64,000 nucleotides of DNA from Antarctobacter albus (lineage in GTDB: Bacteria; Pseudomonadota; Alphaproteobacteria; Rhodobacterales; Rhodobacteraceae), in contig NZ_FMZI01000007.1 of the NCBI RefSeq assembly GCF_900101505.1, forward strand, positions 62,001-126,000, written 5' to 3'. Below, one piece after another: positions 2,928 through 23,937 of this stretch (position 1 is its first letter; each line of letters opens with the position of its first letter). The notes below the pieces were generated by a model. The model saw only the letters and a list, made by a program, of their open reading frames with translations. It searched no databases and had not been told where the DNA came from. The position numbers and the translations under genes were made by a program.

Positions 2928-3878
2928 TCAGCCCAGCTTCGCCGGTTTGGCGGGGCTTGCGGGCGGTTGCGGCTGCAACTGGATGCCCAGAACGTCCCGG
3001 ATGGCGGTTTCCACGTCCGCGCCGGTCCGCTCCATGTGGCGTTTGACCTCAAATAACTTCATGTCGACCAAGTATCGATACCAGAAGCCCTGGAGAAAGT
3101 GAAACGCGGCGCCTTCTCGCCCATCGAGAAAGCCAAGCCGCAGGACATAGCGATACAGGAAATAGGCCAGCGCGCGACTGCCCGTGGGCATGTTGGCATA
3201 GACCTTCTCCTTGAGCCAGCGTTTGACCCCCGCCTGCTGCCCGCCCTTCAGGTCGGCCACGGTTTCATGCGGCATGAAGCCGTATTCGAGGTTCAACAGG
3301 TCCACCACCTCGCGGTTGGAATAGCCGTTGTGCTTTTCCGTCCACCAGGCCAGCGAGTTGTGGTTGTCGTCGATCAGCTCGCCGTCGAAATCGGCGGTCT
3401 GGCCGGGGACAAGGATATGTTCGTCCATCCAACGGTTCTCGCAGCGTCCGCGCCCGTTGCGGAACAGGCGCAGCACGCGCACCGGAAAGATGCCGCCAAA
3501 GCGGATGCGCTTGCGAAGGAATGTCATCCGGCGCGAGACATAGACGCCGTCGATCTCCTCGCCCAGGCCGCCCAGCTTCTGCACGATCTCCTGCGCCAGC
3601 GGTTCGGTGATGTATTCATCCGCGTCCAGCCGCATGACCCAGTCGGCCTCTGCAGGCACCCGGTCGATGCCCCAGTTCATCTGGGTGGCGTAATTGATCC
3701 AGGGGTTCTCCAGCACGGTGGCGCCCTTTTCGCGGGCGATCTCCCTGGTGCGGTCGGTCGATCCGCTGTCCACCACCAGGCATTGCGTCGCAAAAGACGC
3801 GACGGAGTCGAGGCAGCGCGCGATATGGCGTTCCTCGTTCTTGGTCAGGATGACGACGGTGACGTTCGGCTTGGTCAT
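2928..3878 (-). CDS. Family 2 glycosyltransferase, WaaE/KdtX-like
   Basis: The 316 residues begin with the GT-A signature VVILTKNEERHIARCLDSV (about 8-26), then VVDSGSTDRT (35-44) and the metal-binding RLDADE (83-88). The region around QMNWGID and the later LHRxYLR-like segment match the WaaE/KdtX group (lipopolysaccharide-core and EPS glucosyl- or related transferases). The start ATG overlaps the acetyltransferase stop by 4 bases, so translation is probably coupled. It is the last gene of the overlapping run before the 76-bp gap to the kinase gene. Role in EPS repeat-unit assembly is inferred from context; donor and acceptor are unknown. Confidence 0.9.
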   Translation of the reverse strand: MTKPNVTVVILTKNEERHIARCLDSVASFATQCLVVDSGSTDRTREIAREKGATVLENPWINYATQMNWGIDRVPAEADWVMRLDADEYITEPLAQEIVQKLGGLGEEIDGVYVSRRMTFLRKRIRFGGIFPVRVLRLFRNGRGRCENRWMDEHILVPGQTADFDGELIDDNHNSLAWWTEKHNGYSNREVVDLLNLEYGFMPHETVADLKGGQQAGVKRWLKEKVYANMPTGSRALAYFLYRYVLRLGFLDGREGAAFHFLQGFWYRYLVDMKLFEVKRHMERTGADVETAIRDVLGIQLQPQPPASPAKPAKLG

Positions 3879-4453
3879 GCTGTGGCGTCCTCGGTCAGGG
3901 TGCGAAGCGGTTTCGCCGGGTTGCCGACGACGATGGTGCGGGGCGGGACATCCTTCATCGCCACGGCACGGGCGCCGACGATGGCGCGCGGGCCGACGGT
4001 GACACCGGGGCCGATGAAGGCATCCGCCGCCACCCAGGCATCGGCACCCACCTCGATCGGCGGTTTGACCAGCGGGCGGTCGGGCAGGGCGATGTCATGG
4101 CTGCCGGCGCAAAGATGCGCCCCCTGTGAGACGGTCGCGCGGGCGCCGATATGGATCGGGCCAAGCGCATAGAGGATCGCGCCGTCGCCCACGGCGGCAT
4201 AATCGTCGATGGTCAGGTTCCAGGGCATGGTGATCCGCACGCTGGGATAGACATGCACCTGCTGGCCGATCCGCGCCCCAAAGCTGCGCAGCAGGAACCG
4301 CCGCCAGCCCCAGAAGGGGCGCGGCACGATACGGAAGGCTGGCAGCACCAGCGCCCAGAGCACACGGCGGATCTGTTCGGCGCGGCTCCATTTCGTGCCG
4401 GCGCGGTTCTTGGCGATGTCCAGTTCGCTCATCTCGGGCCGCTCAATCCTCAT
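3875..4453 (-). CDS. WcaF-like O-acetyltransferase (left-handed beta-helix)
   Basis: A 192-residue hexapeptide-repeat acetyltransferase. The N-terminal WALVLPAFRIVPRPFWGWRR followed by LLRSFGARIGQQVHVYPS is characteristic of the WcaF/maltose-O-acetyltransferase-like family, and the C-terminal half shows successive [LIV]-G-x4 turns (VGDGAI, HIGARATVSQ, VGADAWVAADAFIGPGV, VGARAVAMKD) ending in VVGNPAKPLR. SQGAHLCAGSHD carries the catalytic histidine region. It should acetylate a sugar of the EPS using acetyl-CoA in the cytoplasm. The reading frame opens at 4453, overlapping the sulfotransferase stop by 11 bases; an ATG at 4432 (MSELDIAK) is an equally good start. Confidence 0.88.
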   Translation of the reverse strand: MRIERPEMSELDIAKNRAGTKWSRAEQIRRVLWALVLPAFRIVPRPFWGWRRFLLRSFGARIGQQVHVYPSVRITMPWNLTIDDYAAVGDGAILYALGPIHIGARATVSQGAHLCAGSHDIALPDRPLVKPPIEVGADAWVAADAFIGPGVTVGPRAIVGARAVAMKDVPPRTIVVGNPAKPLRTLTEDATA

Positions 4454-5267
4454 ATCCCCAGCGCGTCAGATGCGGCGCTAGGGTCTCGTTGATCTCGGCG
4501 ACAAGCTCGGCGTTATCCAGCTCCTTGCTGCGCTTGCTGCGTCCCTTGTTGAAGGTCAGCGTGCCGCCATAGATGTTTTCCAGCTTCACCTCGCTCAGCG
4601 GTTTCACCGGGCGGGTATGGGCGTGCAGCGCGTCCACCATGCCCTGCTGTGCGGCGGCGTCGCCGCCACCCTGCGCGCCGATCAGCTCCTCGAACGACAC
4701 TTGCAGCACGTCCGGCGCGGTCCGCCAGCCATAGGCCCGGTCCAGCACCGTGGTGAAGGGGTACAGCGTGTAGCCCGTGCCCGGCCCGCCGCGCAGCAGC
4801 CGCGCGATGCGGGCGTCGCGGGAGAGGCCCGCGAAGTCCTTGTGCATGTAGAAATCCGGACGCGAGCCGATCCAGTCCGCGAAGGACACCAGGATGTCAC
4901 GCGGATCGCGCCGGATGCAGATCATCCGCGCGCCGGCCTCGCGCAGCACGCCCTCCAGTTCCTGGGTATGCGCGGCGTGTCCGCCCATGATCTTGCCCGA
5001 CAGTTTCCCTGCCGATGCGGCGATGTATTTCCGCGATACCAGCGCGTCGGTCTCCAGGCCCACCTGCACCGCGTCCGACTGTCCGCGCGGGCGGCGCAGG
5101 ATGCGTTTCAGCCACTGGTGTTTGCCGAACAAAAGGTGGGCAGAAATGCCGTTGAAGGGCCCTTCGATGCCCAGCTCGTTCAAGGCGGAATAGACAAGGT
5201 GATTGCCCGATTTCCAGATGCCGGTGACAAAGATACAGGCGGTGCCGTCAGGGGCGGTTCGGGTCAT
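4443..5267 (-). CDS. Sulfotransferase 1 of the EPS locus
   Basis: A 274-residue PAPS-dependent sulfotransferase. The 5'-phosphosulfate loop TGIWKSGNHLV is at about 15-25, the 3'-phosphate motif RRDPRDILVSF near 120-130, and a C-terminal GGTLTFNKGRSKR corresponds to the basic nucleotide-binding loop of Sulfotransfer_1 enzymes. The frame is open further upstream, but the ATG at 5267 has a good AGGA site six or so bases ahead and the extension is arginine/proline-rich noise. The gene begins 4 bases after the neighbouring glycosyltransferase stop and overlaps the acetyltransferase start. Likely transfers sulfate to an EPS sugar; whether it acts on lipid-linked precursors in the cytoplasm is inference. 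Confidence 0.87.
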   Translation of the reverse strand: MTRTAPDGTACIFVTGIWKSGNHLVYSALNELGIEGPFNGISAHLLFGKHQWLKRILRRPRGQSDAVQVGLETDALVSRKYIAASAGKLSGKIMGGHAAHTQELEGVLREAGARMICIRRDPRDILVSFADWIGSRPDFYMHKDFAGLSRDARIARLLRGGPGTGYTLYPFTTVLDRAYGWRTAPDVLQVSFEELIGAQGGGDAAAQQGMVDALHAHTRPVKPLSEVKLENIYGGTLTFNKGRSKRSKELDNAELVAEINETLAPHLTRWGYED

Positions 5268-5271
5268 TCCG

Positions 5272-6390
5272 TCATCCTTGTGCAACACGTTCATAGTCCA
5301 CCTCGATCCGTTCCGCGATCTTGTCCCAGTCGAATTCCTGACGCGCCCAGGCCCGGCCCCTTGCGCCCATTGCGCGCCGCTCTGCCTCGGGCAGCGACAT
5401 GCCCTCTGCCAGGGCCCCGGCCAGCGCGCTCTCGTCCCTAGGCACCGACCAGCCCGCGCCCTCGGCGGGCAGCATCGACCAGGGCGCACCATCGGTCGAG
5501 ATCACCGGCAATTCCGCCAGCAGGGCCTCGGGCACGGTCAGGGCAAAGTTCTCGCTGTCCGTGGGCAGGGCAAACAGTTCTGCCGACTGCAGAGCGCGCC
5601 ACTTGTCGTCGCCAAAGAGCGGGCCGGGGAAAGCAACCCTTTCCAGGCCCAGGTCCCGCGCCAGCGATTGCAGCATCTCCAGGTGACCGTCCTTCGGGTC
5701 CGGGCCGATGATCCGCAGGTCCCAGCCGGGGAAATTTGGTTCCAGCTGCGCCCAGGCGCGCAACAGCCGGTCGATGCGTTTTTTCTTGTGCATCCGGCCC
5801 AGGGTGACAACGGTCTTTTGACGCAACGGCGGCGTCGCGCGCAGCGCGCCCGGCATGTCGGGCACGCCGATGGGTACCACGGCGACAGGCGCCGTCAGGC
5901 CATAGGCGCGGATCTCTGCCTCTTCCTCGGGGACGGTGGCGTGGTACAGCGCGGCGGCGCGGAAACAGCGATCCTGATACAGCGCCGAAACCACGCGTTT
6001 GCGCCCCCTGGAATAACTCAGCGCCACGTCGGACAGCATCCCGTGCGGCGAAATCACCAGCGGCTTGCCGGACCTTGTGGCCCAGCCCGCGGCGACGGCC
6101 GAACTGGCCATCCATATGCCGTGCAGGTGCAACACGTCCGGATCGAAGGCGCGGATCGCCCCGGCCCAACCCGGCGCATAGCCCAGGCTGCGCGGTCCCA
6201 GCGGCGGTTTCACCGTGGCGGGCGCGCCGTGCCAGTTGTCCTTGTCCCCCTTCTGCCATGCCGCGTCTTCGAGGCCGAAGACACGCACGTCATGGCCCCG
6301 GCGCGCCAGCGCGGCGGACAGATGTTCAGCCACTTCGCGCACGCCGGAGGCACGGCGCGACAGGTGTCCGGCAAGAAAGGCGATCTTCAT
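5272..6390 (-). CDS. Family 4 (GT-B) glycosyltransferase
   Basis: The 372-residue enzyme has a GT-B fold. The N-terminal domain starts MKIAFLAGHLSRRASGVREV and contains the conserved LHLHGIWM and PHGMLS. The C-terminal donor-binding domain shows VVTLGRMHKKKRID and the retaining-enzyme signature SENFALTVPEALLAELPVIS, with the two glutamates of the E-x7-E motif (the first in SEN, the second in PEA). This is a typical capsule/EPS transferase. Its start overlaps the upstream glycosyltransferase stop by 4 bases (ATGA). Sugar specificity cannot be inferred. Confidence 0.92.
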   Translation of the reverse strand: MKIAFLAGHLSRRASGVREVAEHLSAALARRGHDVRVFGLEDAAWQKGDKDNWHGAPATVKPPLGPRSLGYAPGWAGAIRAFDPDVLHLHGIWMASSAVAAGWATRSGKPLVISPHGMLSDVALSYSRGRKRVVSALYQDRCFRAAALYHATVPEEEAEIRAYGLTAPVAVVPIGVPDMPGALRATPPLRQKTVVTLGRMHKKKRIDRLLRAWAQLEPNFPGWDLRIIGPDPKDGHLEMLQSLARDLGLERVAFPGPLFGDDKWRALQSAELFALPTDSENFALTVPEALLAELPVISTDGAPWSMLPAEGAGWSVPRDESALAGALAEGMSLPEAERRAMGARGRAWARQEFDWDKIAERIEVDYERVAQG

Positions 6391-7508
6391 GCGGGTCCCC
6401 CGGTCTGTTGCGCACCGGCGGTGGCCCGGACCCAGTCGCAGAACCTTGCCGCCATTGCCTGCGTGTTGAACCGTGTCGCGACCGTGTCCAGCGCTGCCCG
6501 CGAATAGGCGTTCAGTCTCTCGGGGTCGTCGGTCAGCGCCGCCAGTTGGCGGGCAAGGTCGGTGACGTCCTCTCGGGCGAAGGTGACGCCCGTCGTTCCG
6601 GCGGCAAAGGCCGCGATTTCGGGCATGTGGTCGGCGCGGCTGTCATGGACCATGACCGGCAGCCCGTAGGCCATCGCATGGACCAGCGACAGACCCACTG
6701 CGCCCGGATAGACGAAGACCCGCGCGTCATTGGCGATGGGGGCGATCTCGGCCTCGGTGAAACGGGGGCCGTGCCACAGGACCCGGTCTGCGCAGCCGAG
6801 CGTTTCGGCCCGGGCGCGGATCGCGTCTGGCGCGTCGCCGATCACGCTCAGTTCGACCGATGCCGCCTCGGGGCGGGCAAGCGCCTGCAACAGCAGGTCA
6901 AACCGCGATTTTTCGGTCAGGCGGCCGATGAACATGGCGCGGCGCGGGCGCGTCGCGGCATCATAGGGGGTGCGCAGGCCGACGATCTCGCGCGTGTCGA
7001 TGCCGTTGTTCAGCGCCGAAGCGGGCAGGGTGCCGCCATCGGCGCCGTATTGGCCGGCCTCGTCATCGGTGTAGAACAGAACAGCAGCGCCCAACCGGTA
7101 CATGATCCGGCGCAAGCCCTTGGCCAGCCCCCGGCTGCCAGCGCTATGGTAATGGCCCCACCAGATCACGGGGATGCCCCGCTTGCGCGCCCGGCGGGCC
7201 AGCACAAGGTTCGAGGCGGTGCGGATCGTGGCGCTGAGCACGAGCACGTCGACGCTCGACAGGTCCAGCGCCGTGGCGCCCTCCTGCCAGTCGATGCCCT
7301 TGGCGACGCTGCGCGTCTCGCCAAGGCGGCGGAACCAGTCCGGATCGCAGCCATCGGCGCGCGGGGTCACGCGGGCGGCATGGACGTTGAGGTCAATCCC
7401 CGGTGTCGCGGCGATCGAGTCGAAAAAGGCGATGCGGTAGTGCGGCACATGGTTCTGCAGAACCGCGACGCGCAGGTCGTTGCTGGTGGGAATGCCGGTT
7501 TCGATCAT
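6387..7508 (-). CDS. GT-B glycosyltransferase
   Basis: A 373-residue GT-B protein. The N-terminal half has VAVLQNHVPHYRIAFFDSI, seen in transferases of EPS loci, and VIWWGHYHSAGS. The C-terminal domain has AMFIGRLTEKSRFDLLLQAL and YPGAVGLSLVHAMAYGLPVM, in which the usual E-x7-E is replaced by G-L-S-L-V-H-A: the signature acidic residues are not both obvious, so the active-site assignment is less certain than for its neighbours. Overlaps both flanking genes by 4 bases. Confidence 0.87.
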   Translation of the reverse strand: MIETGIPTSNDLRVAVLQNHVPHYRIAFFDSIAATPGIDLNVHAARVTPRADGCDPDWFRRLGETRSVAKGIDWQEGATALDLSSVDVLVLSATIRTASNLVLARRARKRGIPVIWWGHYHSAGSRGLAKGLRRIMYRLGAAVLFYTDDEAGQYGADGGTLPASALNNGIDTREIVGLRTPYDAATRPRRAMFIGRLTEKSRFDLLLQALARPEAASVELSVIGDAPDAIRARAETLGCADRVLWHGPRFTEAEIAPIANDARVFVYPGAVGLSLVHAMAYGLPVMVHDSRADHMPEIAAFAAGTTGVTFAREDVTDLARQLAALTDDPERLNAYSRAALDTVATRFNTQAMAARFCDWVRATAGAQQTGGPA

Positions 7509-8279: not shown

Positions 8280-9242
8280 TCAACCGGCCTTTCCGGGCGA
8301 GGCGACGCGGGCGCGGCGCAGCTTGGACCGCAGGGTCCTGAGCGGTGCCGCCTTGATTCGCACCGGCCATTCGCCAAAGGCGAGCTTTTCGCGCCGCGAG
8401 GCGTGTTTGGCATGGGGGTAAAGCCGTTCGTACCCCAGCGGATCCAGCAGGCTGTTGGCATTGGCCTCGAAGATCTCGATTTCGCGCCCGCTCAGCTCGG
8501 TCTTCCAGGCCTCGGTGCGCACGGAGGCGATCCCGGCGCCGACCAGCGAATGCTGGTGTCTCGTGAACTCGGGGACGTCGTAATTGCCCTGGGCATTGAT
8601 CTCGGCCTCGGTCAGGGTCAGGTCGGGATCGTCGCGCAGGAACCGCATCAACCGTGTCCATTCGGCCAGATCGCCGCTGGCCAGCCGCTCGTAGGTGACG
8701 GTGATGCAGGTGTCGGGGAACATCTGGCTGGCGGCCAGCCCGGCGGAGACCTGCGCCCGCCACCACCAGGCGCCCTCGACCGGGTTGTTCGGACCCCAGC
8801 TGAGTTTCTGGACCGAGGCATAGACCGCGCGGCCGTCGCGGACGATATGCACGAAACGCGCCAGCGGAAAGCTGTCGCGCAGGATGTTGAACAGGCTGAA
8901 GTTGACCGGCGTGTGATCGACCCAGATGCCGGTCGGATGGGTGTCGATCCCCTCGGTAAAGACCAGCCGCGCGAAATAGGGTTCGACCCCTTCGGCAGCG
9001 GCGGCGTCCAGCGCCGCCTGGTCGGGGCGGTCGGTCCAGAGCCGGTAGTAAAAGCTCTTGTCGAGGATGCCTTGCAGCTTGTCCGTGCGGCCCTTGGCAA
9101 AGGCGGCCAGCAGGTCCCGCTTGAACTGGGACTCCGGGGTGACACGACCGTTCAGCAGCGCGCCAAGGCGTTCGCCCAGAAAGGTCGTGCCGCTGCGCGG
9201 GCAGGCGCCGATAAAGACGGGGCGAAGCGGGCAGGCTGTCAT
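8280..9242 (-). CDS. Sulfotransferase 3 of the EPS locus
   Basis: 320 residues, starting MTACPLRPVFIGACPRSGTT. The P-loop-like GACPRSGTTFLGERL and the FVHIVRDGRAVYASV motif (3'-phosphate-binding arginine and serine) are canonical for the Sulfotransfer_3/1 group. The ATG at 9242 overlaps the upstream glycosyltransferase stop as ATGA; an in-frame upstream start at 9290 would overlap 50 bases and is less likely. Arginine/lysine-rich C-terminus. Presumed PAPS-dependent sulfation of EPS intermediate. Confidence 0.88.
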   Translation of the reverse strand: MTACPLRPVFIGACPRSGTTFLGERLGALLNGRVTPESQFKRDLLAAFAKGRTDKLQGILDKSFYYRLWTDRPDQAALDAAAAEGVEPYFARLVFTEGIDTHPTGIWVDHTPVNFSLFNILRDSFPLARFVHIVRDGRAVYASVQKLSWGPNNPVEGAWWWRAQVSAGLAASQMFPDTCITVTYERLASGDLAEWTRLMRFLRDDPDLTLTEAEINAQGNYDVPEFTRHQHSLVGAGIASVRTEAWKTELSGREIEIFEANANSLLDPLGYERLYPHAKHASRREKLAFGEWPVRIKAAPLRTLRSKLRRARVASPGKAG

Positions 9243-10426
9243 GCGCAGACCTTTTCGGATGGGGACCGGTCCAGGGTCGTGGCGATCCATTTCAGCACCT
9301 GCATGCTGCGCCCGTCGCCATCGGTGAGGGCCGCCCGGTCTGCCAGCGCCCGGCGCATCCCCGCCAGGCGGTCGCTGTCAGAGGCGAGGTCGTCCAGCGC
9401 GGCGGCAATCGCGGCGGGGTCGCGCGGATCGACCAGCACCACGCCCTCCGCGGGCACCTGCCAGCGGATGTCGTCGATGTCGGAACTGACCACCGGCAGC
9501 CCGCAGGCCATCGCCTCGGCGATCACGTTGCAGCAGCCCTCGGCCAGTGTCGGCAGGACAAGCACATCCGCCGCGTTCATCCACAGGGGCAGTTGATCGT
9601 GACCGACACTGCCCTGAAACACCTTGCCCGCGAAATCCGGCTTCAGCTCTCCGCTGCCCAGGTAGGCGACCTGCACCGGCGTGCGCATCTGCTTGAGCGC
9701 CGCGTCGACGCGCAGCACGCCCTTGCGGTCCGAAAACCGCCCGACGTAAAGCGCCAGGAATGCCTCGGGATCGAGCCCCAGCTCTGCCCGGCAGGCGGCG
9801 CGGTCGCGCGGGCGAAACAGTGCCGGATCGGGCGCGTTGGGCATCAGTTGCACCTTGTCCGGATCGGCGCCCAGCTCGATGGCCTCGTCCCGCAGGCGCG
9901 GCGAAACGCAGACCACGCCCGTCGCGTCGGCCATGACCGCGCGCCGCTCGGCCAGGATGTGTTTCGGCCCGGTCAGCAAGGTCTTGCTCTCGCCCAGGTC
10001 GACGAAATACGGCTCTCCGGTGATTTTCGAAACCTTGCGCGCCATCGCCCCGGCCGAGATGAACTTGGCATAGATGAAGGCGCCGCGCTCGGCGCCGGTC
10101 ATGGCGGCGACGACGCGCCCGTGGTTGTAACGTCGCATCCTGCGGCGGACCCGTTGCGGCAAGACCCCGCCGAACGGCTGCCCAAGGGTCGGGGCCCAGG
10201 TGACCTTGATGCCGGGCTGAGAGACATCCTGCGCGGGGCGCAACGCGCGCTTGATCCGAAAGCCAAGGGTTTCCACGCTGAAGACGTCGATCTGGCGGGC
10301 CGTCGCGCGCCAGGCGTCGGTCAGGTTGGCCAGGAAACGGCCACGTTCGGGGTGCCGGGGATGCGGGAAAACGGGGGTCACGACCCGTATACGGTCGAAG
10401 CCCGATATGCTCTCGAATTGGCTCAT
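9239..10426 (-). CDS. Family 4 (GT-B) glycosyltransferase
   Basis: 395 residues. N-terminal RIRVVTPVFPHPRHPERGRF is typical of teichuronic-acid/EPS type transferases; the donor domain has LYVGRFSDRKGV and LPTLAEGCCNVIAEAMACGL, with both signature glutamates (AEG and AEA). It is followed downstream (minus strand) by an overlapping sulfotransferase and preceded by a 49-bp gap after the flippase stop, with only a weak ribosome-binding site. Probably one of the repeat-unit assembly enzymes. Confidence 0.92.
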   Translation of the reverse strand: MSQFESISGFDRIRVVTPVFPHPRHPERGRFLANLTDAWRATARQIDVFSVETLGFRIKRALRPAQDVSQPGIKVTWAPTLGQPFGGVLPQRVRRRMRRYNHGRVVAAMTGAERGAFIYAKFISAGAMARKVSKITGEPYFVDLGESKTLLTGPKHILAERRAVMADATGVVCVSPRLRDEAIELGADPDKVQLMPNAPDPALFRPRDRAACRAELGLDPEAFLALYVGRFSDRKGVLRVDAALKQMRTPVQVAYLGSGELKPDFAGKVFQGSVGHDQLPLWMNAADVLVLPTLAEGCCNVIAEAMACGLPVVSSDIDDIRWQVPAEGVVLVDPRDPAAIAAALDDLASDSDRLAGMRRALADRAALTDGDGRSMQVLKWIATTLDRSPSEKVCA

Positions 10427-10475: not shown

Positions 10476-11717
10476 TCAACCGGACTGGCGGCGCAGGTAA
10501 CCGAAAAAACTGAACGTGTTCACGAGCTTCATGGTGGACATGGAGGCGGCGACACCGATCACCGCGTAGATGGGATCGGCCATGACTGCCGCCAACCCGA
10601 TGGCCAGCACGGCGACCGCGAAACCGGCGAGATTTGCGATCAGGTTCTTCTTTTCGTTGCCGCTCATGGCCAGCATGGCGCCGACCGGCCCGGCAAAGAC
10701 ATGCACCGCGGCCCCGACCATGATGATGGTCGCGAACAGTTCGAACGGCGGGTCCGTCGGAAAGGGCAGCGGCACCAGCGCATAGGCCAGCAGCAGGAAG
10801 GCCACACCGGCCAATCCCAGCGCCAGGCTGAACACCAGCATCCGGCGGTAGAGATTGCGCAGCTGGCGTGCGTTCTTGCCCGGCACGATGGGCATGACGT
10901 AGACGCGGCCCGGTTCGTTGAGATAGGTCAACAGGCTGCCAAATCGGTTGGCCAAGGCAAAGACGCCGGTGACCGTGGGTCCAAACAGCGCCGCGATGGC
11001 CAGTGTCGTGCCGTGCCCGTTGAAGGAGCTCAGCGTCTGGTAACCCAGGACGTGCCACTGGTCGCTGCCCAGCAACAGCCGGTAGCGGAACCCGGGCGCC
11101 CGTGCGGCGCGGCACTCGGCCAGGAAGGGGCGCAGCAGCAGGGCAAAGACCACGGACGAGGCCACGTAGCCCAGCGTCAGGAAGGCCAGCGCCGCGAAAT
11201 GGCCGGTTTCGCCGAACTTGCTTTCGAACAGGACCGAAAGCCCGAAGAGCGCCACGCTGATGCCCACCGGCAGCGCATTGGCAAAAAGCGAGACCTGCAC
11301 CTGTTTCTTTTGCGCCAGCAGGATACGCGACAGGATCATCGAACAGTTGAAGGCGGTGACAAAACCCAGGAAGATCAGGCTTTCCAGCGGCGGCCAGCTG
11401 CGCAGGATCAACACGCCGATCAGCGCCAGCGCCACGCCCCCCGCCAGGACAGAGGTCAACAGCGCCGACAGCAGGTAGTCTAGGAACTTCTCGCGCAGGA
11501 TCTCGGGGCTGACCTTGTAGTAGCGCACCAGGATATTGTCCGCGGCCAGCCGCGCGATCAGGCAGGTAAAGACCTGCGCGCTGAGATAGGTCGAGACGAG
11601 ACCGAAGCTGGTGGTGCCCAAGGCCGTTGCCCAGAGCGTCGTCTGGGCCAGCGACAGGGTGATGATGACCAGGCGCAACGACAGGATCCGCGTCGCGAAA
11701 CCAATCATTTTCTTCAT
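10476..11717 (-). CDS. Polysaccharide flippase (Wzx-like, MOP superfamily)
   Basis: 413 residues, almost entirely hydrophobic, with about 12 predicted membrane helices spaced along the chain, beginning MKKMIGFATRILSLRLVIIT. The pattern (helices joined by short basic loops such as LLRPFLAECRAARAPGFRYR and NARQLRNLYRR) fits the oligosaccharide flippase family that moves undecaprenyl-linked repeat units across the inner membrane. The ATG at 11717 overlaps the polymerase stop as ATGA; the frame is open upstream but only as the wrong frame of the polymerase gene. With the neighbouring polymerase and the Wzc-type protein it makes a Wzx/Wzy-dependent export pathway. Confidence 0.85.
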   Translation of the reverse strand: MKKMIGFATRILSLRLVIITLSLAQTTLWATALGTTSFGLVSTYLSAQVFTCLIARLAADNILVRYYKVSPEILREKFLDYLLSALLTSVLAGGVALALIGVLILRSWPPLESLIFLGFVTAFNCSMILSRILLAQKKQVQVSLFANALPVGISVALFGLSVLFESKFGETGHFAALAFLTLGYVASSVVFALLLRPFLAECRAARAPGFRYRLLLGSDQWHVLGYQTLSSFNGHGTTLAIAALFGPTVTGVFALANRFGSLLTYLNEPGRVYVMPIVPGKNARQLRNLYRRMLVFSLALGLAGVAFLLLAYALVPLPFPTDPPFELFATIIMVGAAVHVFAGPVGAMLAMSGNEKKNLIANLAGFAVAVLAIGLAAVMADPIYAVIGVAASMSTMKLVNTFSFFGYLRRQSG

Positions 11718-15930: not shown

Positions 15931-17796
15931 TCAGTCGGCGACCCGGGCGGTCTTTGCGCGAGCCGCATCGGTCAGACCCTGTCGGTAGGCCGCTTCGATC
16001 CGGTTGCGCAGCCGGGTTGTGGCAAGATCGGACAGGTGCCGTTCGTCCCGGAACATCTGGTTGCCCTGGGCGTCCAGGAACAGGACCTCGCCGGTTTCGC
16101 GGACAAAGGGGCTGGCCACGTCGACATAGGTGACACGCTCGCCGGCCAGGCCCGAGAGATGTGCATTGACCTCGGACCGGCGCAGGCGGTCGGCCTCCGG
16201 CTCGGCAAAGGGCGGGCGGGCGCCGTCGCGCATTGCCGCGCGCGTGGCGTCGGGCGGCAGCGCGGGCAACTGTCCCAGGATCACCACATGTCCGGCATGG
16301 GGCAGCAGCTTTTGCAGGGCCAGGTCGGCGCGGCCTTCCTGCCCGCCGGACAGCTTGCCCGACCAGTGGTTCGCCAGGATCACGACATCGGGCCGCGTCC
16401 GTTCGATGAACCCCAGGCTGTTGCGCCAGAGCGCGGGGTCCTTGCCCTCGGTCACCGGCAGGCTGTTCTTGCCCGCGACGCTCAGAACATGCAGCGTGCA
16501 GCCAAGGTCATGGCACATGTCGCGCAGCGTACGGCCAAAGTTCGACCCGATGCTGTCCCCGGCCAGCACCACAATGGGCGCGCCCTGCGGACCCGGGTAA
16601 AGCTTGCCACCCTCGGCGGCCTCGGTCACGCTGCTGTTGACGTAGAATTCCTTGCGGATCCACAGCCCGGCAGGCACCGACAGCGCCAGCACCACGGCAA
16701 ACCCGGCAAAGACCGGCAGCCGCAGGTCCGGCCGGTTCAGGGTCCGCCGCGCAGGCGTTTCCAGCAGCGCGTAGGTCGCCAGTGTCAGGGCCAGCGTAAC
16801 GACCACTTTCAGCCCGTGGCGCAACAGGTCGCTTTCGGCAAAAAGCGCATAGTCGACAAGGCTGAAGACCGGCCAGTGCCAGAGGTAGAGCGAATAGGAA
16901 ATCTTGCCGATGGCCACCATTGGGCCCGAGGCCAGCAACCGCTGGCCGGGATAGGCGCCCCGGGTGCCGGCCAGCAGCAGCGCCGCGGTTCCGGCGACCG
17001 GCAGCAGGGCAACATAGCCCGGAAAGGCCAAGCCCTCGTGCAGGACCACAAGGCTGGCGGCGACCGCGGCCAGCCCCGCCAGCGCCAGGCCGGGTCGCAG
17101 AGCTGGCGGCAGGTGGCCCATCCGCCCGTTGGCGACAAAGGCGGCAAGGCCGCCAAGCCCCAGCTCCCAGGCCCGGAACGGCAGCAGGAAGAAAGCCGCC
17201 TTCGCGTTGACGAAGGTCATGGCGATGCAGGCCGCCAGGCTCAGTGCCGTGATCGCCAACAGGACGCGCGCGATGACCCTTGCTCCGAACCGGCCCAGCA
17301 TCATCAGCATCAGCGGGTAGATCAGGTAGTATTGTTCCTCGACCGAGAGCGACCAGAAATGCAGGAAGGGCTGCGAGTCGGGCGAGATGTCGAAGTAGTT
17401 GCCCTGGAAATAGAACTTGATGTTGGCGACGGACAGCAGGGCGGCGGCGGAATTGACCCCGGCCGAGGCGTATTCCTGCGCGATGTAGATGAACCGGGCG
17501 GCGATCAGCGTCGCCACGACGACGACGATCATCGCCGGGAACAGGCGCGCGACCCGCCTTTGATAGAACGTGCCCAGGCGGATGCCGTCGCGTTCCAGGT
17601 CGTTCATCAGGATGCTGGTGATCAGGAATCCCGAGATCACAAAGAAGATGTCGACCCCGATGAAACCGCCCGGCAACCAATGCGGATCGAGATGGAAGAC
17701 AAAGACCGATCCGACGGCGATTGCGCGCAGGCCGTCAATGTCACGGCGATAGGAAACCGAAAACCCGCCCGTTCCGGGGCTACTGTCCGTGCTCAT
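15931..17796 (-). CDS. O-acyltransferase, OafA type, with C-terminal SGNH domain (second copy)
   Basis: 621 residues from the ATG at 17796, which has GAGG about 12 bases ahead; a GTG at 17814 is an alternative. YRRDIDGLRAIAVGSVFVFH, GVDIFFVISGFLITSILM and LHFWSLSVEEQYYLIYP are the Acyltransferase_3 landmarks, and VVLAGDSIGSNFGRTL near residue 412 is the SGNH nucleophile block; HLSDLATTRL carries the terminal histidine. It has the same architecture as the adjacent gene but is clearly diverged from it, so the two probably modify different positions or sugars. Confidence 0.92.
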   Translation of the reverse strand: MSTDSSPGTGGFSVSYRRDIDGLRAIAVGSVFVFHLDPHWLPGGFIGVDIFFVISGFLITSILMNDLERDGIRLGTFYQRRVARLFPAMIVVVVATLIAARFIYIAQEYASAGVNSAAALLSVANIKFYFQGNYFDISPDSQPFLHFWSLSVEEQYYLIYPLMLMMLGRFGARVIARVLLAITALSLAACIAMTFVNAKAAFFLLPFRAWELGLGGLAAFVANGRMGHLPPALRPGLALAGLAAVAASLVVLHEGLAFPGYVALLPVAGTAALLLAGTRGAYPGQRLLASGPMVAIGKISYSLYLWHWPVFSLVDYALFAESDLLRHGLKVVVTLALTLATYALLETPARRTLNRPDLRLPVFAGFAVVLALSVPAGLWIRKEFYVNSSVTEAAEGGKLYPGPQGAPIVVLAGDSIGSNFGRTLRDMCHDLGCTLHVLSVAGKNSLPVTEGKDPALWRNSLGFIERTRPDVVILANHWSGKLSGGQEGRADLALQKLLPHAGHVVILGQLPALPPDATRAAMRDGARPPFAEPEADRLRRSEVNAHLSGLAGERVTYVDVASPFVRETGEVLFLDAQGNQMFRDERHLSDLATTRLRNRIEAAYRQGLTDAARAKTARVAD

Positions 17797-18004
17797 GTTG
17801 GGCGCCAACCTCACTGACGGTCAATAACTTGCTCTTCGAGTCGATAGGTGGAAGCAAAATCAATTAGTTGCGCAGAAACTTGCGCGGAAACCCACCGCGC
17901 TTTCCCTACCAGTTGCCCTTGCAGCGATCAATACCTGCACTGCCGACCCAGGGGAACGGAAACTTGGTCCGCTCAGGGGGGCAGGCGGGCAGTTGCACAA
18001 GAAA

Positions 18005-18080: not shown

Positions 18081-20408
18081 TCAGATCTCGGCCCGCCAGG
18101 ACAGGGTGACGGGCGTGCTGGCCAGCGGCAGGTCGGCTCCGTCCTTGACCACGACCGTCATGTTTTGCGCGTCAAAGAGCTTGGTCTTGGCGCGGTAGTC
18201 GTTGTCGCCGGTGATCTGCGCCGCGGTAAAGTCCGGCTGGCTCAGCAGGCCATGCGCAAAGGTGATCTCGCCATTGGCGTCGGTGCTGGTCTGCAGGGTG
18301 CCGCGTCGGTTGATGCCGCCGCGCGGATCGCGGCCCAGGGCCGCCACCGCGTTTGTCCGCAACTCGACCAGGGCCATGATCTCGTCCGGGGACAGCAGCC
18401 GATCATAGACCAGCACCTCGTCGATCACCACGGTCGAATTCTGCCCGCCGTTCAGCTTCCAGTCGGTGTATCCGCCAGAGGTCAGGGCCGGGGGCACCGC
18501 GCGCGTCACCTCGTTGATCGCCTCGCCATTGGGGGCGTGGAAACGGATCGTCCCGGCGGTGGCATCGTGGCTGATGACGTACCAGACCGGTTGCCGCAGG
18601 TAGTTGTCCTGCACGTTGCCCAGGTCGTCGCTCACCCGGCCGCCGCCGTTGTCCTCGGTGCGCACGCGCAGGTAGCCGGGGCGGGGCGACAGGTCCAGCG
18701 AGCTGTCCGTGACGCTGTCCTCGATGCTGAAGGCCAGGTGGTTGCCGTTGGTGGTGTTGTAGCACAGAAAGCCCACGGTCCAGTCCGCGGTCCAGTCGAT
18801 GCTGGTGTCGTTGATGATCACCCCGCCGCCGGATCCGTCACCCGCGACACCATCGCCGTAACGGGTGTGCGTGCCGGTCTTGCTGCCGCCGCCGATCACC
18901 TCGGCCCGTGCGCCGCTGATCGGACAGTGGAAATGGTCGTCACCCTCATCGACGAAGGACCAGGCGCGCACCAGCCCGCGCGAGGTGAAGCCGGTGAAAT
19001 GGATCGAGTAATCCTCGAAGGCGGCGCGGCCCAGCGGGATCAGGCGGCCGCCGTTCTGGATGAAGCCGCCGCTGACGTTGCTGTCCTGCTGGGTGATGTC
19101 GCCCGAGACATAGAGCGTCCCGGCATTCAGCACGATGTTGCCGTTGGTGTTGTGTTCGAACCAGGCCTGGCCGTCGATCTGCCACGTCAGGCGTTTGCCG
19201 CCGCTGTCGCCATCCACCAGGATTCCGATGTCACAAGCGCCCAGTTCGGCCGCGCGCAGCTCGATCCGGCTGTGGTTCTGCTGTCCGCCGCCCAGGCGGA
19301 TTCCGGTGCCGCAGCCGTTGATTTCCCGCACCCCCAGGTGCAGCGCCTGGATAAAGGGCGAAACCTGTCCCAGCGGCGTCGGGCATTCGATCTCGACACC
19401 TTTGACACAGTCGTAGGCATTCAGGTTGTCGGTGTCGACATAGGCCACGGCCCCGCCTTCTCCGGTAAAGCAGAAGGCCGTCTCCGCCCCTTCGATATAG
19501 ATGTTGCGAAGGTGCGACTTCCGGAAGTCATACGCCAGGATGCCGACGAAGTTGCGGTAGTTCGGATAGCCCGGCTCCGACACGATCGCCAATCCCTCGA
19601 CCGCCGCCGACACGCAGGTGACGGCCCCGGTGCCCAGCTGGATCGCCGCGCCCGTGCCGGTGTAGTTCAGCGTCACCGCGTGGTTCGACGTCCCGCCACC
19701 ACGGGTGCCGCCGGTTCGCGCCGACCCGATCAGAGAGACCGAGGGCGGCACGATCAGCGTCTGTGTCGTCAACCAGCGTTTGGGCGCGACCGGCAGGATC
19801 ACGCAGCCGCCCCCGTCGACAGAGGCGGCATCCAGCGCCTTCTGGATGGCGGGGCCGTCATCGGCCTCGTTGTCGCCCACTGCGCCAAAGGCACGCACGT
19901 CGAACCCGTTTCCGGTCGCGACCACCTTCAGCTTGACCCCGCCTGCGGTGATGACGTCCGGGGCAGATGCGCTGGGCGACAGCACGCGGTAGGTAAAGCC
20001 GCACTCGTTGACGGTGATGTTCTCGCCCAGCGACACCCGTCTGCGGCCCAGTGCAACCCCGTAGCCCAGAACCCGGTCCGCAAGCAGTTGCGAGACGGTG
20101 TTGAAGGTCTTGGCCGTGCCAAAGGAGAGCGGCGAGGTGACCGAGATGTCATCCTGGCTGAACAGGATCTTGTCCCGGTCGGTCGTGATGACGACCTTGT
20201 AGTCGCCGTCGACCAGGAAACACAGCTCGAACTGCCCGTTCTCGTCCGCCACCAACGGGTTGGCCATCATCGTGGTCAGCCCCACGTCGCTGTAGACCGG
20301 GCAGGCCTGGTCGGTGCCGGCCCACATGATGTATTTCTTGGCGTGGGCGACCGGGGTGCTGTTGTGGTCAAGGGCGATGCTCGCCGATTCCAGGTTCAGG
20401 AGTCCCAT
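18081..20408 (-). CDS. Tailspike-like protein: pectate-lyase-3 beta-helix plus LamG-like domain (candidate EPS depolymerase)
   Basis: 775 residues, ATG with GAGGT seven bases ahead. Three parts are visible. (1) Residues 1-95 resemble head-binding N-termini of phage tail proteins: PVYSDVGLTTMMANPLVADE (38-57) is the recurring VYSD-x-L-x-TP/M-LANPVVAD element. (2) Residues 168-460 start with FDVRAFGAVGDNEADDGPAI, the signature opening of Pectate_lyase_3 parallel beta-helices, followed by glycine-rich coils. (3) Residues about 475-690 look like a LamG/concanavalin-like jelly roll (WTADWTVGFLCY, VIDEVLVYDRLLSPDEIMAL). A last 80 residues form a small domain. There is no signal peptide. No other phage genes lie nearby, and it sits between acyltransferase and sulfotransferase genes of the EPS locus, so it may cleave or bind the locus's own polymer. 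Catalytic residues cannot be assigned. Confidence 0.8.
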   Translation of the reverse strand: MGLLNLESASIALDHNSTPVAHAKKYIMWAGTDQACPVYSDVGLTTMMANPLVADENGQFELCFLVDGDYKVVITTDRDKILFSQDDISVTSPLSFGTAKTFNTVSQLLADRVLGYGVALGRRRVSLGENITVNECGFTYRVLSPSASAPDVITAGGVKLKVVATGNGFDVRAFGAVGDNEADDGPAIQKALDAASVDGGGCVILPVAPKRWLTTQTLIVPPSVSLIGSARTGGTRGGGTSNHAVTLNYTGTGAAIQLGTGAVTCVSAAVEGLAIVSEPGYPNYRNFVGILAYDFRKSHLRNIYIEGAETAFCFTGEGGAVAYVDTDNLNAYDCVKGVEIECPTPLGQVSPFIQALHLGVREINGCGTGIRLGGGQQNHSRIELRAAELGACDIGILVDGDSGGKRLTWQIDGQAWFEHNTNGNIVLNAGTLYVSGDITQQDSNVSGGFIQNGGRLIPLGRAAFEDYSIHFTGFTSRGLVRAWSFVDEGDDHFHCPISGARAEVIGGGSKTGTHTRYGDGVAGDGSGGGVIINDTSIDWTADWTVGFLCYNTTNGNHLAFSIEDSVTDSSLDLSPRPGYLRVRTEDNGGGRVSDDLGNVQDNYLRQPVWYVISHDATAGTIRFHAPNGEAINEVTRAVPPALTSGGYTDWKLNGGQNSTVVIDEVLVYDRLLSPDEIMALVELRTNAVAALGRDPRGGINRRGTLQTSTDANGEITFAHGLLSQPDFTAAQITGDNDYRAKTKLFDAQNMTVVVKDGADLPLASTPVTLSWRAEI

Positions 20409-20428: not shown

Positions 20429-20444
20429 TGACTGTTCAAAGTCA
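20429..20444. promoter_or_regulatory. Inverted repeat ahead of the tailspike-like gene
   Basis: TGACT-N6-AGTCA lies about 20-36 bases upstream of the start codon at 20408. It could be an operator or a 5'-UTR stem; five-base arms are short enough to be chance. Confidence 0.3.
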
Positions 20445-20638: not shown

Positions 20639-20656
20639 GCCGGTCACGTGACCGGC
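20639..20656. repeat. 18-bp perfect palindrome after sulfotransferase 5
   Basis: GCCGGTCACGTGACCGGC lies seven bases beyond the sulfotransferase stop on the minus strand. It has no loop and no T run, so it is a poor terminator; a protein-binding site is possible but unsupported. Confidence 0.45.
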
Positions 20657-20662
20657 GCTGGG

Positions 20663-21322
20663 TCAGAAGTCCTTGAGGTAGTTCTTCCAGCGGTTCGGGA
20701 CGACCTTGACCAACCCCTTGGGCAGCGCTTTCTGCGCCCATTTTGCCAGCGGCCCGTTGATCGACTTGTTCCGGCGGCGAAAGGCCGATCCCGCGTCGAA
20801 GTCAAAGAAGGCGTTGACCGCCTCCGGGTCCGGCGCGTCGATATCCATGATCAAAAGCCGCTCCGCCGGGATCTCGGCGCGGACGGCGGCAAGATGCGTA
20901 TCCCAGTCACGCTCCCACTTCTCGATCACCTGTTCACGCGTCAGGCCATAGCAGGCGGCATAGCGTTCGGGGTAATTCGCAAAGCCCAGCCGGGACTTGA
21001 TCCAGTCGTCGCGCTTGCGGATGTTGAGGATGAACTTCATCTCGGGATAGGCGGCGGCGATCTCGCGGAAATGCTTGTAGCCTTCGACGATCCGCTCTTC
21101 CGAGGTGTATTCCACGTCCGTGAAGGCGTCGATATCGTCCATTCCGTCCAGCGGCGGCCGTCCTTGTTCCAGGTTGTCGGCGATGGTCAGGGCGATATTC
21201 CGCTTCTCGCCGTCGCGCAGGTAGGAATGGTGAACCGCCGTCAGGCCCTGGCGTTCCAGCATGTCGGCAATGGATGTCGTCCCGCAACGGTTGAACCCAA
21301 CTTGGAAAAATCGCGGCTTCAT
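20663..21322 (-). CDS. Sulfotransferase family protein 5
   Basis: 219 residues from the ATG at 21322 (MKPRFFQVGFNRCGTTSIAD). VGFNRCGTTSI is the phosphosulfate loop of the small Sulfotransfer_4-like group, common in Rhodobacterales; KFILNIRKRDDWIKSRL stands where the 3'-phosphate motif is expected. The frame is open to 21367 but the extra residues are unconvincing. It is separated from the tailspike-like gene by 254 bp and faces away from gmd, so it may have its own promoter. Role in EPS sulfation is inferred from location. Confidence 0.82.
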   Translation of the reverse strand: MKPRFFQVGFNRCGTTSIADMLERQGLTAVHHSYLRDGEKRNIALTIADNLEQGRPPLDGMDDIDAFTDVEYTSEERIVEGYKHFREIAAAYPEMKFILNIRKRDDWIKSRLGFANYPERYAACYGLTREQVIEKWERDWDTHLAAVRAEIPAERLLIMDIDAPDPEAVNAFFDFDAGSAFRRRNKSINGPLAKWAQKALPKGLVKVVPNRWKNYLKDF

Positions 21323-21755
21323 AGAATGTTCCAGTCTGTTTCCGGGAGGGCGGGCCATGCCTGGCATCGTCCGTTTTTCCGGGTCACGTGCGTCAATTCA
21401 CGGGCGCCTGTTACCCGACTCGGCGGGATCGGTCCAGCGATCATGACGGCGCGGAAACCGCGCGGAGGGTCATCGCCGGGCGGCTGCCTCTTTGATGGTC
21501 GTTTCCACGCCGCGACGCCCGTCACAGGTGGCTGTGCAGGTCATTCCGGGCTCGCCGACATCCCTGCCGGGAGCGCAGGAACGCCTTGCCCGAACAGCGC
21601 CCGCGTGCAAATTTTTGGCGCTTTTTCGCCCGTCTTCCGGCCCCCCGGCCAGGTGGCCGCTTTCAAGTTGCGCCTCCGTGGGAAACTACGATATGCGGAC
21701 GCCGACGCGGACACCGGTCGATTATGCGGCCGCCTCAGCAAAGAATGGTTGATTG
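21323..21755. other. 433-bp divergent intergenic region between sulfotransferase 5 and gmd
   Basis: No credible reading frame: the frames here are short and lack ribosome-binding sites and family motifs. It must hold promoters for both divergent genes. The A+T-richer stretch at about 21607-21630 contains a small GGCG/CGCC stem-loop. I cannot assign a promoter with confidence. Confidence 0.5.
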
Positions 21756-22877
21756 ATGAAGAAAGCTCTTATCACGGGTGTGACTGGTCAGGATGGCTCT
21801 TACCTGGCGGAACTGCTTCTTGAGAAAGGCTACGAAGTGCACGGCATCAAGCGCCGCGCCTCGCTTTTCAACACCGAGCGTGTCGACCATATCTACCACG
21901 ATCCGCACACCAGCGGTAAGAACTTCACCCTGCATTACGGCGACCTGACCGACACCTCGAACCTGACGCGTATCCTGTCCGAGGTGCGCCCCGACGAGGT
22001 CTACAACCTCGGCGCCCAAAGCCATGTGGCGGTCAGCTTCGAGGCCCCGGAATACACCGCCGACGTGGACGCCACCGGCACCCTGCGCCTGCTGGAATCG
22101 ATCCGCTTCCTGGGCATGGAAAAGACCACCCGGTTCTACCAGGCCTCGACCTCGGAACTCTACGGCCTGGTGCAGGAAATCCCGCAGACCGAAAAGACGC
22201 CTTTCCACCCGCGCAGCCCCTACGCGGTGGCCAAGATGTACGCCTACTGGATCACGGTGAACTACCGTGAGGCCTATGGCATGTACGCCTGCAACGGCAT
22301 CCTGTTTAACCACGAAAGCCCGCGCCGCGGCGAAACCTTCGTGACCCGCAAGATCACCCGCGGCATGGCCAATATCGCACTGGGCCTGCAGGACTGCCTC
22401 TACATGGGCAACATCGACGCGCTGCGCGACTGGGGCCATGCCAAGGACTATGTCCGGATGCAGTGGATGATGCTGCAACAGGAGGTGGCCGACGATTTCG
22501 TCATCGCCACCGGCGTTCAATACTCCGTGCGCGAGTTCATCCAGTGGACCGCCAAGGAACTGGGGATCGAGCTGGAATTCTCCGGCGAGGGCGTGAACGA
22601 GATCGCCACCGTCGCAGCCGTGACCGGTGACCTGGCCCCGGCGGTCAAGCCGGGCGACGTGGTGCTGCGCATCGATCCGCGCTATTTCCGTCCCGCCGAG
22701 GTGGAAACCCTGCTGGGCGATCCGACCAAGGCCAAGGAAAAGCTGGGCTGGGTCCCCGAGATCACGGCCCAGGAAATGTGCGCCGAAATGGTCGCCGCCG
22801 ACCACAAGGTCGCGCGTCGCCATGCACTTCTGAAAGAACACGGTTACGATATTCCCGTCGCGCTGGAAAACGGCTGA
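21756..22877 (+). CDS. gmd: GDP-mannose 4,6-dehydratase
   Basis: Converts GDP-D-mannose to GDP-4-keto-6-deoxy-D-mannose, the first step to GDP-L-fucose. The 373 residues are the normal length. The NAD(P)-binding [19 protein letters not shown] opens the protein, [16 protein letters not shown] and [12 protein letters not shown] follow, STSELYG carries the active-site threonine/serine-glutamate, and [20 protein letters not shown] holds the catalytic Tyr-x3-Lys (Tyr about 156). [19 protein letters not shown] is diagnostic for Gmd rather than other SDR epimerases. ATG at 21756 is preferred over the adjacent TTG at 21753. fcl follows 43 bp later, probably in the same transcript. Confidence 0.97.
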
Positions 22878-22920
22878 GTTCCCTCCCGCGCGATCGCCAT
22901 TCGAAGTCAGGAGGCACATT

Positions 22921-23892
22921 ATGCCCAAGATCTACGTCGCAGGCCATCGCGGTATGGTGGGCGGGGCCATCACCCGCAAGCTTAAGCAGCGCCAGGAGGC
23001 GGGGGAGGACATCACCCTCGTCACCCGCACCCATGCCGAGCTGGAACTGACGAACCAGGCGGCGGTCAAGGCCTTCATGCAAGAGGAAAAGCCCGACATC
23101 GTCGTGCTGGCCGCGGCCAAGGTCGGCGGTATCCTGGCCAACAACAGCTACCCGGCAGAGTTCATCTACGACAACCTGATGGTGCAGTGTAACGTCATCC
23201 ACGCCGCCTGGGAGGCGGGGGTGGAGCGGCTGCTGCAACTGGGGTCGTCCTGCATCTACCCCAAGGCCGTGCCGCAGCCCATGCGCGAGGCCGCGCTGCT
23301 GACCGGCCCGCTGGAACCCACCAACGAACCTTATGCCGTCGCCAAGATCGCCGGCATCAAGATCTGCGAAAGCTACAACCGCCAGTACGGCGTGGATTAT
23401 CGCTCGGTCATGCCGACCAACCTCTATGGGCCCGGGGACAACTTCCACCCGGAAAACAGCCACGTCCTGCCCGCCCTGATCCGACGCTTCCACGAGGCCG
23501 CGCAAGAGGGCAAGGACGAGGTGGTGATCTGGGGCAGCGGCAAGCCCCGGCGCGAATTCCTGCACGTCGACGACATGGCAGAGGCCTCGCTTTTCGTGTT
23601 GGACCTGGACAAGGCCACTTACGATGCCAACACCCAGCCGCAGCTGAGCCATATCAACGTGGGTTCCGGCGTCGATGTCTCGATCCTGGAACTGGCGCAG
23701 ATGGTGGCCGAAGTGACGGGTTTCCAGGGCAAGATCGAACTGGACCGGACCAAGCCCGACGGCACCATGCGCAAGCTGATGGATGTCAGCCGCCTGGCCG
23801 ACATGGGGTGGAAAGCCTCGATCGACCTGGAAAACGGCGTGCGCGAGACCTACCAGTGGTTCCTTGACAACCAGGACAGCTTCCGCCGCTGA
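22921..23892 (+). CDS. fcl: GDP-L-fucose synthase
   Basis: NADPH-dependent 3,5-epimerase/4-reductase that finishes GDP-L-fucose. 323 residues with the expected [20 protein letters not shown], the SSCIYPK active-site block, [20 protein letters not shown] with the Tyr-x3-Lys pair, and the Gmd-partner signature [20 protein letters not shown], including the active-site histidine. Strong AGGAGG site eight bases before the ATG. Paired with gmd, it gives the EPS locus its own fucose donor. A terminator follows directly. Confidence 0.97.
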
Positions 23893-23911
23893 TCCGCTGA
23901 CCAATCTGCCG

Positions 23912-23937
23912 ACGCGCCGGGCCGTTGCCCGGCGCGT
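23912..23937 (+). terminator. Intrinsic terminator after fcl
   Basis: Perfect 11-bp stem (23912-23922 with 23927-23937), CGTT loop, followed by TTGGGTTTT. It marks the right end of the EPS locus and lies just before the convergent peroxidase gene. Confidence 0.88.

Follow-up and report, generated by a model that had tools for sequence, protein, structure and literature searches.

An exopolysaccharide locus of Antarctobacter albus with a GDP-fucose pathway and five sulfotransferase-signature proteins

An exopolysaccharide (EPS) locus of about 26.6 kb overlaps the window, a 64,000-nucleotide stretch (G000:C15:62001-126000) of the 5.26-Mb Antarctobacter albus genome. The locus is probably of the Wzx/Wzy type and extends from a priming sugar transferase, to the left of the window, to the end of fcl at window position 23892. 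Its product is probably a fucose-containing heteropolysaccharide that is both sulfated and O-acylated. Five proteins with sulfotransferase signatures, A to E, are encoded in the locus together with gmd and fcl (Table 1). Four of the five genes fall within a run of 11 minus-strand genes, from 13716 to 2928 (D, Wzy, Wzx, GT4, C, B, GT4, GT4, A, WcaF, GT2). With the starts chosen, 8 of the 10 junctions in this run overlap by 4 to 23 bases, while the other two have gaps of 1 and 49 bases. The placement of the sulfotransferases is therefore not a matter of chance. The genes for E, the tailspike-type protein and two OafA-type acyltransferases lie upstream of the run on the same strand, separated by gaps of 33-266 bases.

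Sulfotransferase assignments

C, D and E each exceed the Pfam cut-off of a different sulfotransferase family. A remains below the cut-off of PF00685, which one of its relatives passes (L043, 30.4 bits; cut-off 22); a second relative reaches 18.7 bits (L041), and the Pseudosulfitobacter relative has no Pfam match. Single-sequence searches of solved structures gave nothing useful for A or B. A three-member profile of A, however, reaches solved sulfotransferases (best E 2.1e-6). Together, the relative above the cut-off and the profile match predict with high confidence that A is a sulfotransferase. The best solved relative of C is a tyrosylprotein sulfotransferase (E 6.6e-5), and its sole NCBIfam match is NoeE, at 25.3 bits far under the cut-off of 500. 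NoeE adds sulfate to the fucose residue of Nod factors, and the faint likeness of C to it may serve as a lead, not a test.

Sulfotransferases carry two cofactor motifs, the P-loop (5'-PSB) and a second motif, 3'-PB. A pattern script found both in B, C and E, the P-loop alone in A, and neither in D. By eye, RRDPRDILVS is visible in A, and KKAAGTS and VRNPWDRFVS in D.

B is a probable sulfotransferase. Its P-loop reads GIQRSGTN, and an AlphaFold model built from four sequences (mean pLDDT 73) gave 459 Foldseek matches at E ≤ 10. Every one of the best 50 of these 459 is a sulfotransferase or a retinol dehydratase, an enzyme that has the sulfotransferase fold. A thin profile comparison of B with A paired both cofactor motifs (E 0.0058, probability 6%), and the comparison of B with E gave E 0.04, against 0.15 for a glycosyltransferase control. 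Counting against B are the lack of a match to any known family in Pfam or NCBIfam and the weakness of the structural likeness, with no Foldseek match at E ≤ 0.001 and TM values of 0.33-0.48. The B profile gave chance matches only among solved structures. Matches to B occur in 6 of 295 family genomes, the source genome included, and two of them are short, weak and broken by stops. A scan of named genomes found relatives in Frigidibacter albus, Pseudoroseicyclus tamaricis and one metagenome-assembled genome (MAG). By reading, the P. tamaricis gene lies between Wzx-like and Wzy-like genes and the MAG gene beside fcl; the F. albus gene has unrelated genes around it, an argument against a constant role in EPS synthesis.

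The original prediction counted five distinct sulfotransferases. This count holds for C, D and E through Pfam and for A through its relative and profile, with B only probable; the places of all five are as described, and their likely starts lie inside the open reading frames first listed. Recent duplication of one sulfotransferase was considered and is unlikely, because an alignment of all five gives identities to B of only 16-22% for the others. A simple hydropathy scan found no hydrophobic segment in A to E, so the five should act in the cytoplasm on a lipid-linked unit.

The sulfate donor, 3'-phosphoadenosine 5'-phosphosulfate (PAPS), is likely made for sulfation in the source genome. There is one adenosine 5'-phosphosulfate (APS) kinase match, and the protein concerned looks like an ATP sulfurylase as well. 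The single PAPS_reduct protein contains CC...CxxC, the APS-reductase motif, so PAPS is probably not needed for assimilation. Some enzymes with the APS-reductase motif also take PAPS. An EPS plasmid of Pseudooceanicola algae with gmd-fcl carries cysQ and an SLC13 permease, in line with recycling of 3'-phosphoadenosine 5'-phosphate and sulfate uptake beside such loci; the annotated part of this plasmid that was shown includes no sulfotransferase gene.

The fucose pathway and related loci

Both gmd and fcl exceed curated cut-offs, confirming that a genuine GDP-fucose pathway is present, as originally predicted. Across the family, sulfotransferases are common (PF03567 matches in 175 and PF13469 in 181 of 198 genomes), and fcl exceeds its cut-off in 49 of the 198. 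What is not chance is the position of sulfotransferases near fcl. The clustering test covered 34 of the 49 fcl genomes, with 35 fcl places, and used sulfotransferase matches at E ≤ 0.001, including some that fall below the family cut-off, with the expectation set by each genome's own sulfotransferase density. Within 15 kb of the 35 places there were 18 Pfam sulfotransferases (14 without the source genome), compared to 1.81 expected. Clustered genes are not independent, and the fairer figure is the count of places: 11 of 35 had a sulfotransferase within this distance, compared to 1.76 expected, and 24 had none. A and B are invisible to PF03567 and PF13469, and the source genome counts four in this test.

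Five sulfotransferases in one locus is a high number, not a unique one. Six lie within 35 kb in G099 and three occur in G005, while gmd plasmids of Leisingera and Phaeobacter have two each in the stretches shown. In G099, a CysH-like and a UDP-sulfoquinovose synthase-like gene, identified by reading, are also found near fcl and the six sulfotransferases (L047 4749-6793, minus strand).

The neighbourhoods of two genes support a link between the locus and fucose. At E < 1e-8, relatives of A were found in three genomes besides the source (198 searched), all less than 12 kb from fcl. Relatives of the GT2 gene at 2928 (GT2 2928) at E ≤ 1e-40 were found in six genomes besides the source, four of which have fcl within 20 kb; in one of the four, G152, fcl scores 480 bits, under the cut-off of 500. 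Wzx, an A relative, a GT2 2928 relative, gmd, fcl and manC lie within about 12.2 kb on a Pseudosulfitobacter plasmid. The G110 genes are arranged as Wzx, an A relative, a GT2 gene, a Wzy-like gene, the GT2 2928 relative, gmd and fcl. Plasmids of Pseudosulfitobacter pseudonitzschiae, where the A relative appears in 30 records, keep this order with some genes in between, two of which read like sulfotransferases and have no Pfam match.

Parts of the order recur elsewhere. G007 keeps GT4-WcaF-GT2 and has four sulfotransferase-like genes, of which two exceed Pfam cut-offs and two fall short of them, and G152 keeps GT2-WcaF-GT4-GT4 with a tailspike-type relative and gmd-fcl nearby. G148 keeps GT2-WcaF-A-GT4; several of its genes are split over frames, a stop interrupts its A relative, and genes that read as transposase-like flank them, giving this stretch (L042) the look of a decaying copy. 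The search for the same gene order in other Rhodobacterales, suggested with the original prediction, therefore found it partially kept, in G148, G110, G007, G152 and the Pseudosulfitobacter plasmids. This comparative pattern may be read as a backbone core common to these loci, with sulfation as a variable layer on top, and the fucose link of the locus appears supported by these other genomes.

Polymer assembly and alternative readings

Of the parts that Wzx/Wzy-type assembly requires, Pfam recognises the priming transferase, the Wza-type exporter and the Wzc co-polymerase. In the order of events that we propose, a PssY/WcaJ-type transferase would load hexose-1-phosphate onto undecaprenyl phosphate, and five GT2/GT4 enzymes would extend the chain, one of them with GDP-fucose, supplied by Gmd and Fcl, as its donor. 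The soluble A to D, from the overlapping-gene run, and E, encoded nearby on the same strand, would use PAPS to sulfate the lipid-linked repeat unit while it is still in the cytoplasm, where the WcaF-like enzyme would acetylate it. Wzx would then flip the unit, Wzy polymerise it, and Wzc and Wza export the product. Two membrane OafA-type enzymes may acylate at the outer side, and the tailspike-type protein may trim or bind the polymer. Several sulfation sites are plausible from five enzymes of different families; the several defined positions of the original prediction stand to that extent.

Several results weigh against a sulfated, fucose-containing product assembled in this way. gmd and fcl are on the plus strand, divergent from the run and 0.4 kb from E, and may therefore serve another glycan. 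No GT10/GT11-type fucosyltransferase was found among the proteins scanned, and manC is absent from the window and seven fetched stretches of the genome, the portion searched for it. The weaker A matches, in G149 (5.4e-5) and G156 (1.2e-4), are other, PF13469-type genes, and two GT2 2928 relatives lack fcl within 20 kb, with fcl about 67 kb away on the same contig in G092 and on another contig in G007. No sulfotransferase was recognised near the G152 core, where part of the open reading frames was scanned, suggesting that sulfation is not needed for this backbone. The Wzx and Wzy candidates are multi-segment membrane proteins without a Pfam or NCBIfam match, and neither has a tblastn match in the loci compared. 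The Wzy candidate is unmatched in five other genomes of the genus and is therefore of no use as a marker of related loci. The Wzx/Wzy pair of the original prediction thus stands on hydrophobic segments and position, with no family match.

It is conceivable, if unlikely, that gmd-fcl supply a different glycan, lipopolysaccharide or a second EPS, and that the product of the locus is sulfated but lacks fucose. Besides the divergent orientation, a 23-kb stretch of Sagittula sp. P11 with two annotated sulfotransferases and rfbC but no gmd indicates that sulfotransferase-bearing EPS loci without a visible fucose pathway exist; against this, gmd-fcl are frequent neighbours of the GT2 2928 and A relatives found in other genera. 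Less probable still is that some or all of A to E act on a non-polymer target (a lipid, small metabolite or protein) or are inactive. The families are broad and common among these genomes, B is unplaced, the nearest solved relatives of C are tyrosylprotein sulfotransferases, and the broken A relative of G148 fits inactivity or another target, but A to D are interleaved with glycosyltransferases in a run whose genes mostly overlap, and more sulfotransferases lie near fcl than expected. The likeness to algal fucans drawn in the original prediction fares worst, and a fucan-like polymer with a fucose backbone is very improbable. The presence of gmd-fcl and five sulfotransferases, one probable, would suit such a polymer. 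However, no gene shows a fucose backbone, and the six sugar-adding enzymes, the priming transferase and five of the GT2/GT4 types, indicate a repeat unit of several sugars, fucose being one of them. The nearest measured EPS, as described in the available part of its report, is likewise a heteropolymer, with fucose at 13.4% of sugars (PMC2953402). We set the fucan likeness aside and retain a sulfated, O-acylated, fucose-bearing heteropolysaccharide as the best reading.

That measured EPS is from Salipiger mucosus A3T, of the same order, and its heteropolysaccharide with fucose, sulfate (0.9% w/w) and acetyl (0.9% w/w) is the closest measured chemistry in the part of the report available (PMC2953402); the comparison concerns chemistry only, and the sulfate is low. 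The word 'sulfotransferase' is absent from the main text of the S. mucosus genome paper (PMC4148975). On plasmid NZ_CP155733.1, Sagittula stellata E-37 likewise has gmd (86% identical to that of the window), fcl (80%), an acyltransferase and a sugar transferase, with four annotated sulfotransferases; its locus differs in being on an 84-kb plasmid with an ABC transporter, O-antigen-ligase-type genes and other glycosyltransferases. The colanic acid locus has gmd-fcl, a WcaF-type acetyltransferase, Wzc/Wza and a GT4/GT2 set, as here, and no sulfotransferases. The WcaF-like protein of the window scores 161 bits against the WcaF equivalog cut-off of 326.

The xss cluster for synechan in Synechocystis is also of the Wzx/Wzy type with sulfotransferases among glycosyltransferases, according to the text available (PMC8205485). 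It differs in belonging to a cyanobacterium, in having two sulfotransferases, with a sulfate ratio of two per repeat composition, and in its sugars (rhamnose, mannose, galactose and glucose); in 2021 its authors were aware of no comparable genes in the EPS clusters of other bacteria. Described later, Vibrio KMM 8419 and Cobetia KMM 1449 likewise have sulfotransferase genes in the cluster and a structurally defined sulfated polysaccharide, in the available portions of these papers (PMC11641403, PMC11766843), whereas theirs are ABC-transporter capsules that contain rhamnose, with PAPS genes inside the cluster. One of the three Vibrio sulfotransferase genes is assigned there to the O-antigen part. 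With these published clusters, and with sulfotransferase-rich gmd-fcl loci recurring in Rhodobacteraceae, the rarity originally claimed for sulfated bacterial EPS needs trimming. No paper on a multi-sulfotransferase EPS locus in Rhodobacterales was among the matches listed for Creative Commons-licensed PubMed Central articles (titles and abstract starts, subscription papers not covered); one listed Roseobacter paper names a sulfotransferase once (PMC3230580).

Locus layout, the tailspike-type protein and implications

The genes named in the original prediction are open reading frames at the places given. Its left edge at 2928 was too far right, as the locus continues leftwards through wzc, a GT2 gene, wza and the priming transferase. 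Both OafA acyltransferases are borne out by AT3 and SGNH domains over cut-off, and the WcaF acetyltransferase falls just under its subfamily cut-off.

Table 1. Features of the EPS locus (positions in the window unless marked L007 or C15; scores in bits)
Feature	Position	Strand	Evidence
Priming polyprenyl-phosphate sugar transferase	L007 17290-17952 = C15:59290-59952		PF02397 182.3
Wza outer-membrane exporter	L007 18195-19640		Poly_export 56.1
GT2 glycosyltransferase, 3' part, frame open to left window edge	1-562	+	PF00535 38.1
Wzc-type co-polymerase/tyrosine kinase	647-2851	-	Wzz 47.5, AAA_31 54.8, GNVR 33.8; TIGR01007 118.9 (cut-off 108.05)
GT2 glycosyltransferase (GT2 2928)	2928-3878	-	PF00535 64.8
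WcaF-like O-acetyltransferase	3875-4453	-	NF007797 181.2 (cut-off 192); PF00132 36.1
Sulfotransferase A, 283 aa; alternative start 5267	4443-5294	-	PF00685 (Sulfotransfer_1) 17.2 (cut-off 22)
GT4 glycosyltransferase	5272-6390	-	PF13692, PF13439; relatives in L042, L054, L061, L062
GT4 glycosyltransferase	6387-7508	-	PF13692 70.7; 47% relative in L062
Sulfotransferase B, probable, 257 aa	7505-8278	-	No Pfam/NCBIfam match; weak Foldseek likeness
Sulfotransferase C, 320 aa	8280-9242	-	PF13469 (Sulfotransfer_3) 79.0 (cut-off 27)
GT4 glycosyltransferase	9239-10426	-	PF13692 79.2
Probable Wzx flippase	10476-11717	-	About 10 hydrophobic segments, position; no Pfam/NCBIfam match
Probable Wzy polymerase	11714-12946	-	About 8 hydrophobic segments, position; no family match
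Sulfotransferase D, 257 aa	12943-13716	-	PF03567 (Sulfotransfer_2) 48.3 (cut-off 22)
OafA-type acyltransferase (AT3 + SGNH)	13963-15897	-	PF01757 106.4, PF19040 48.2
OafA-type acyltransferase (AT3 + SGNH)	15931-17814	-	PF01757 106.4, PF19040 58.9
Tailspike-type protein: head-binding-like N-terminal domain, beta-helix start, LamG-like C-terminal part	18081-20408	-	
Sulfotransferase E, 219 aa	20663-21322	-	PF17784 (Sulfotransfer_4) 54.7 (cut-off 22.8), PF13469 32.2
gmd, GDP-mannose 4,6-dehydratase	21753-22877	+	TIGR01472 573.3 (cut-off 415)
fcl, GDP-L-fucose synthase	22921-23892	+	NF047922 521.2 (cut-off 500)

Two further proteins are encoded outside the EPS locus. About 4 kb to the right of fcl is a TPR plus Sulfotransfer_3 protein (121 bits; 28056-29519, minus strand), with a 32% relative in the same genome (L011). 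To the left, a 1104-residue RTX/DUF4214 protein (L007 11301-14615, minus strand) has a 23% relative on the MAG contig (L023), next to a B relative and fcl.

The product of 18081-20408 looks like a phage tailspike. The profile of its N-terminal part matches the N-terminal domain of solved phage tail spikes (E 9.5e-13) and then beta-helix enzymes (E 8.2e-10), so that a head-binding N-terminus followed by a right-handed beta-helix is seen by sequence profile alone. The protein matches PHROG tail proteins, and PF12708 (25.1 bits) and PF13385 (19.8 bits) both fall under cut-off. Three phage records were matched, two by the N-terminal part of the G152 protein and one by the full window protein, all tail spike proteins; a scan of viral contigs with the N-terminal alignment found no relative. 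The gene is not among phage genes, its neighbours encoding an acyltransferase and a sulfotransferase.

The first 160-250 residues are common to proteins in G152, G047, Sagittula P11 and Antarctobacter (31-46% identity), while the remainder of the window protein has no match to these four at E ≤ 1e-3. The G152 and G047 cases were found via their EPS neighbourhood, and the unbiased count is the three plasmid records only (Sagittula P11, Antarctobacter and Pseudooceanicola algae). All three relatives adjoin glycosyltransferase and other polysaccharide genes, with no annotated phage gene nearby in the stretches shown; lasso-peptide-type genes also occur in the Antarctobacter one. For a fourth plasmid, from Priestia, the match is confined to the C-terminal part. 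The tailspike TspA of a gene transfer agent (GTA) has a beta-sandwich N-terminal domain, a gene next to lysS and GafA control (PMC13420450). Compared by description, not sequence, the window protein differs in its phage-type head-binding N-terminal domain and its genomic place. Proteins annotated as DUF2793 are encoded on the Leisingera (L027 6968-8149) and Phaeobacter (L028 9386-10642) gmd-fcl plasmids; DUF2793 is the family of the GTA tail fibre in the available part of PMC10883770.

A speculative and rather doubtful extension is that EPS loci of Rhodobacterales are lock-and-key cassettes. A shared fucose-linked core (GT2, WcaF, GT4, GT4) would be combined with interchangeable sulfotransferases that set a strain-specific sulfate pattern. 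A domesticated phage tailspike with a constant N-terminal domain and a swapped beta-helix would read or cut that polymer, perhaps delivered on a phage-like or gene-transfer particle.

Sulfated EPS loci are a known kind; what is new is five sulfotransferases of different families, one probable, in one fucose-linked locus of probable Wzx/Wzy type. In this member of a mostly marine group, the locus probably builds a sticky, fucose-containing and multiply sulfated coat, whose chemistry is more familiar in seaweeds and animals than in bacteria. That the A relatives on Pseudosulfitobacter plasmids are annotated as 'hypothetical protein' and escape Pfam suggests that the number of such loci is underestimated. 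If the reading is correct, five sulfotransferases of different families in one locus would allow sulfation positions to be assigned gene by gene. Multi-sulfated polymers with fucose would then be made by heterotrophic bacteria, some of which live with diatoms, and sulfated fucose material in the sea could no longer be taken as a sign of algae only.

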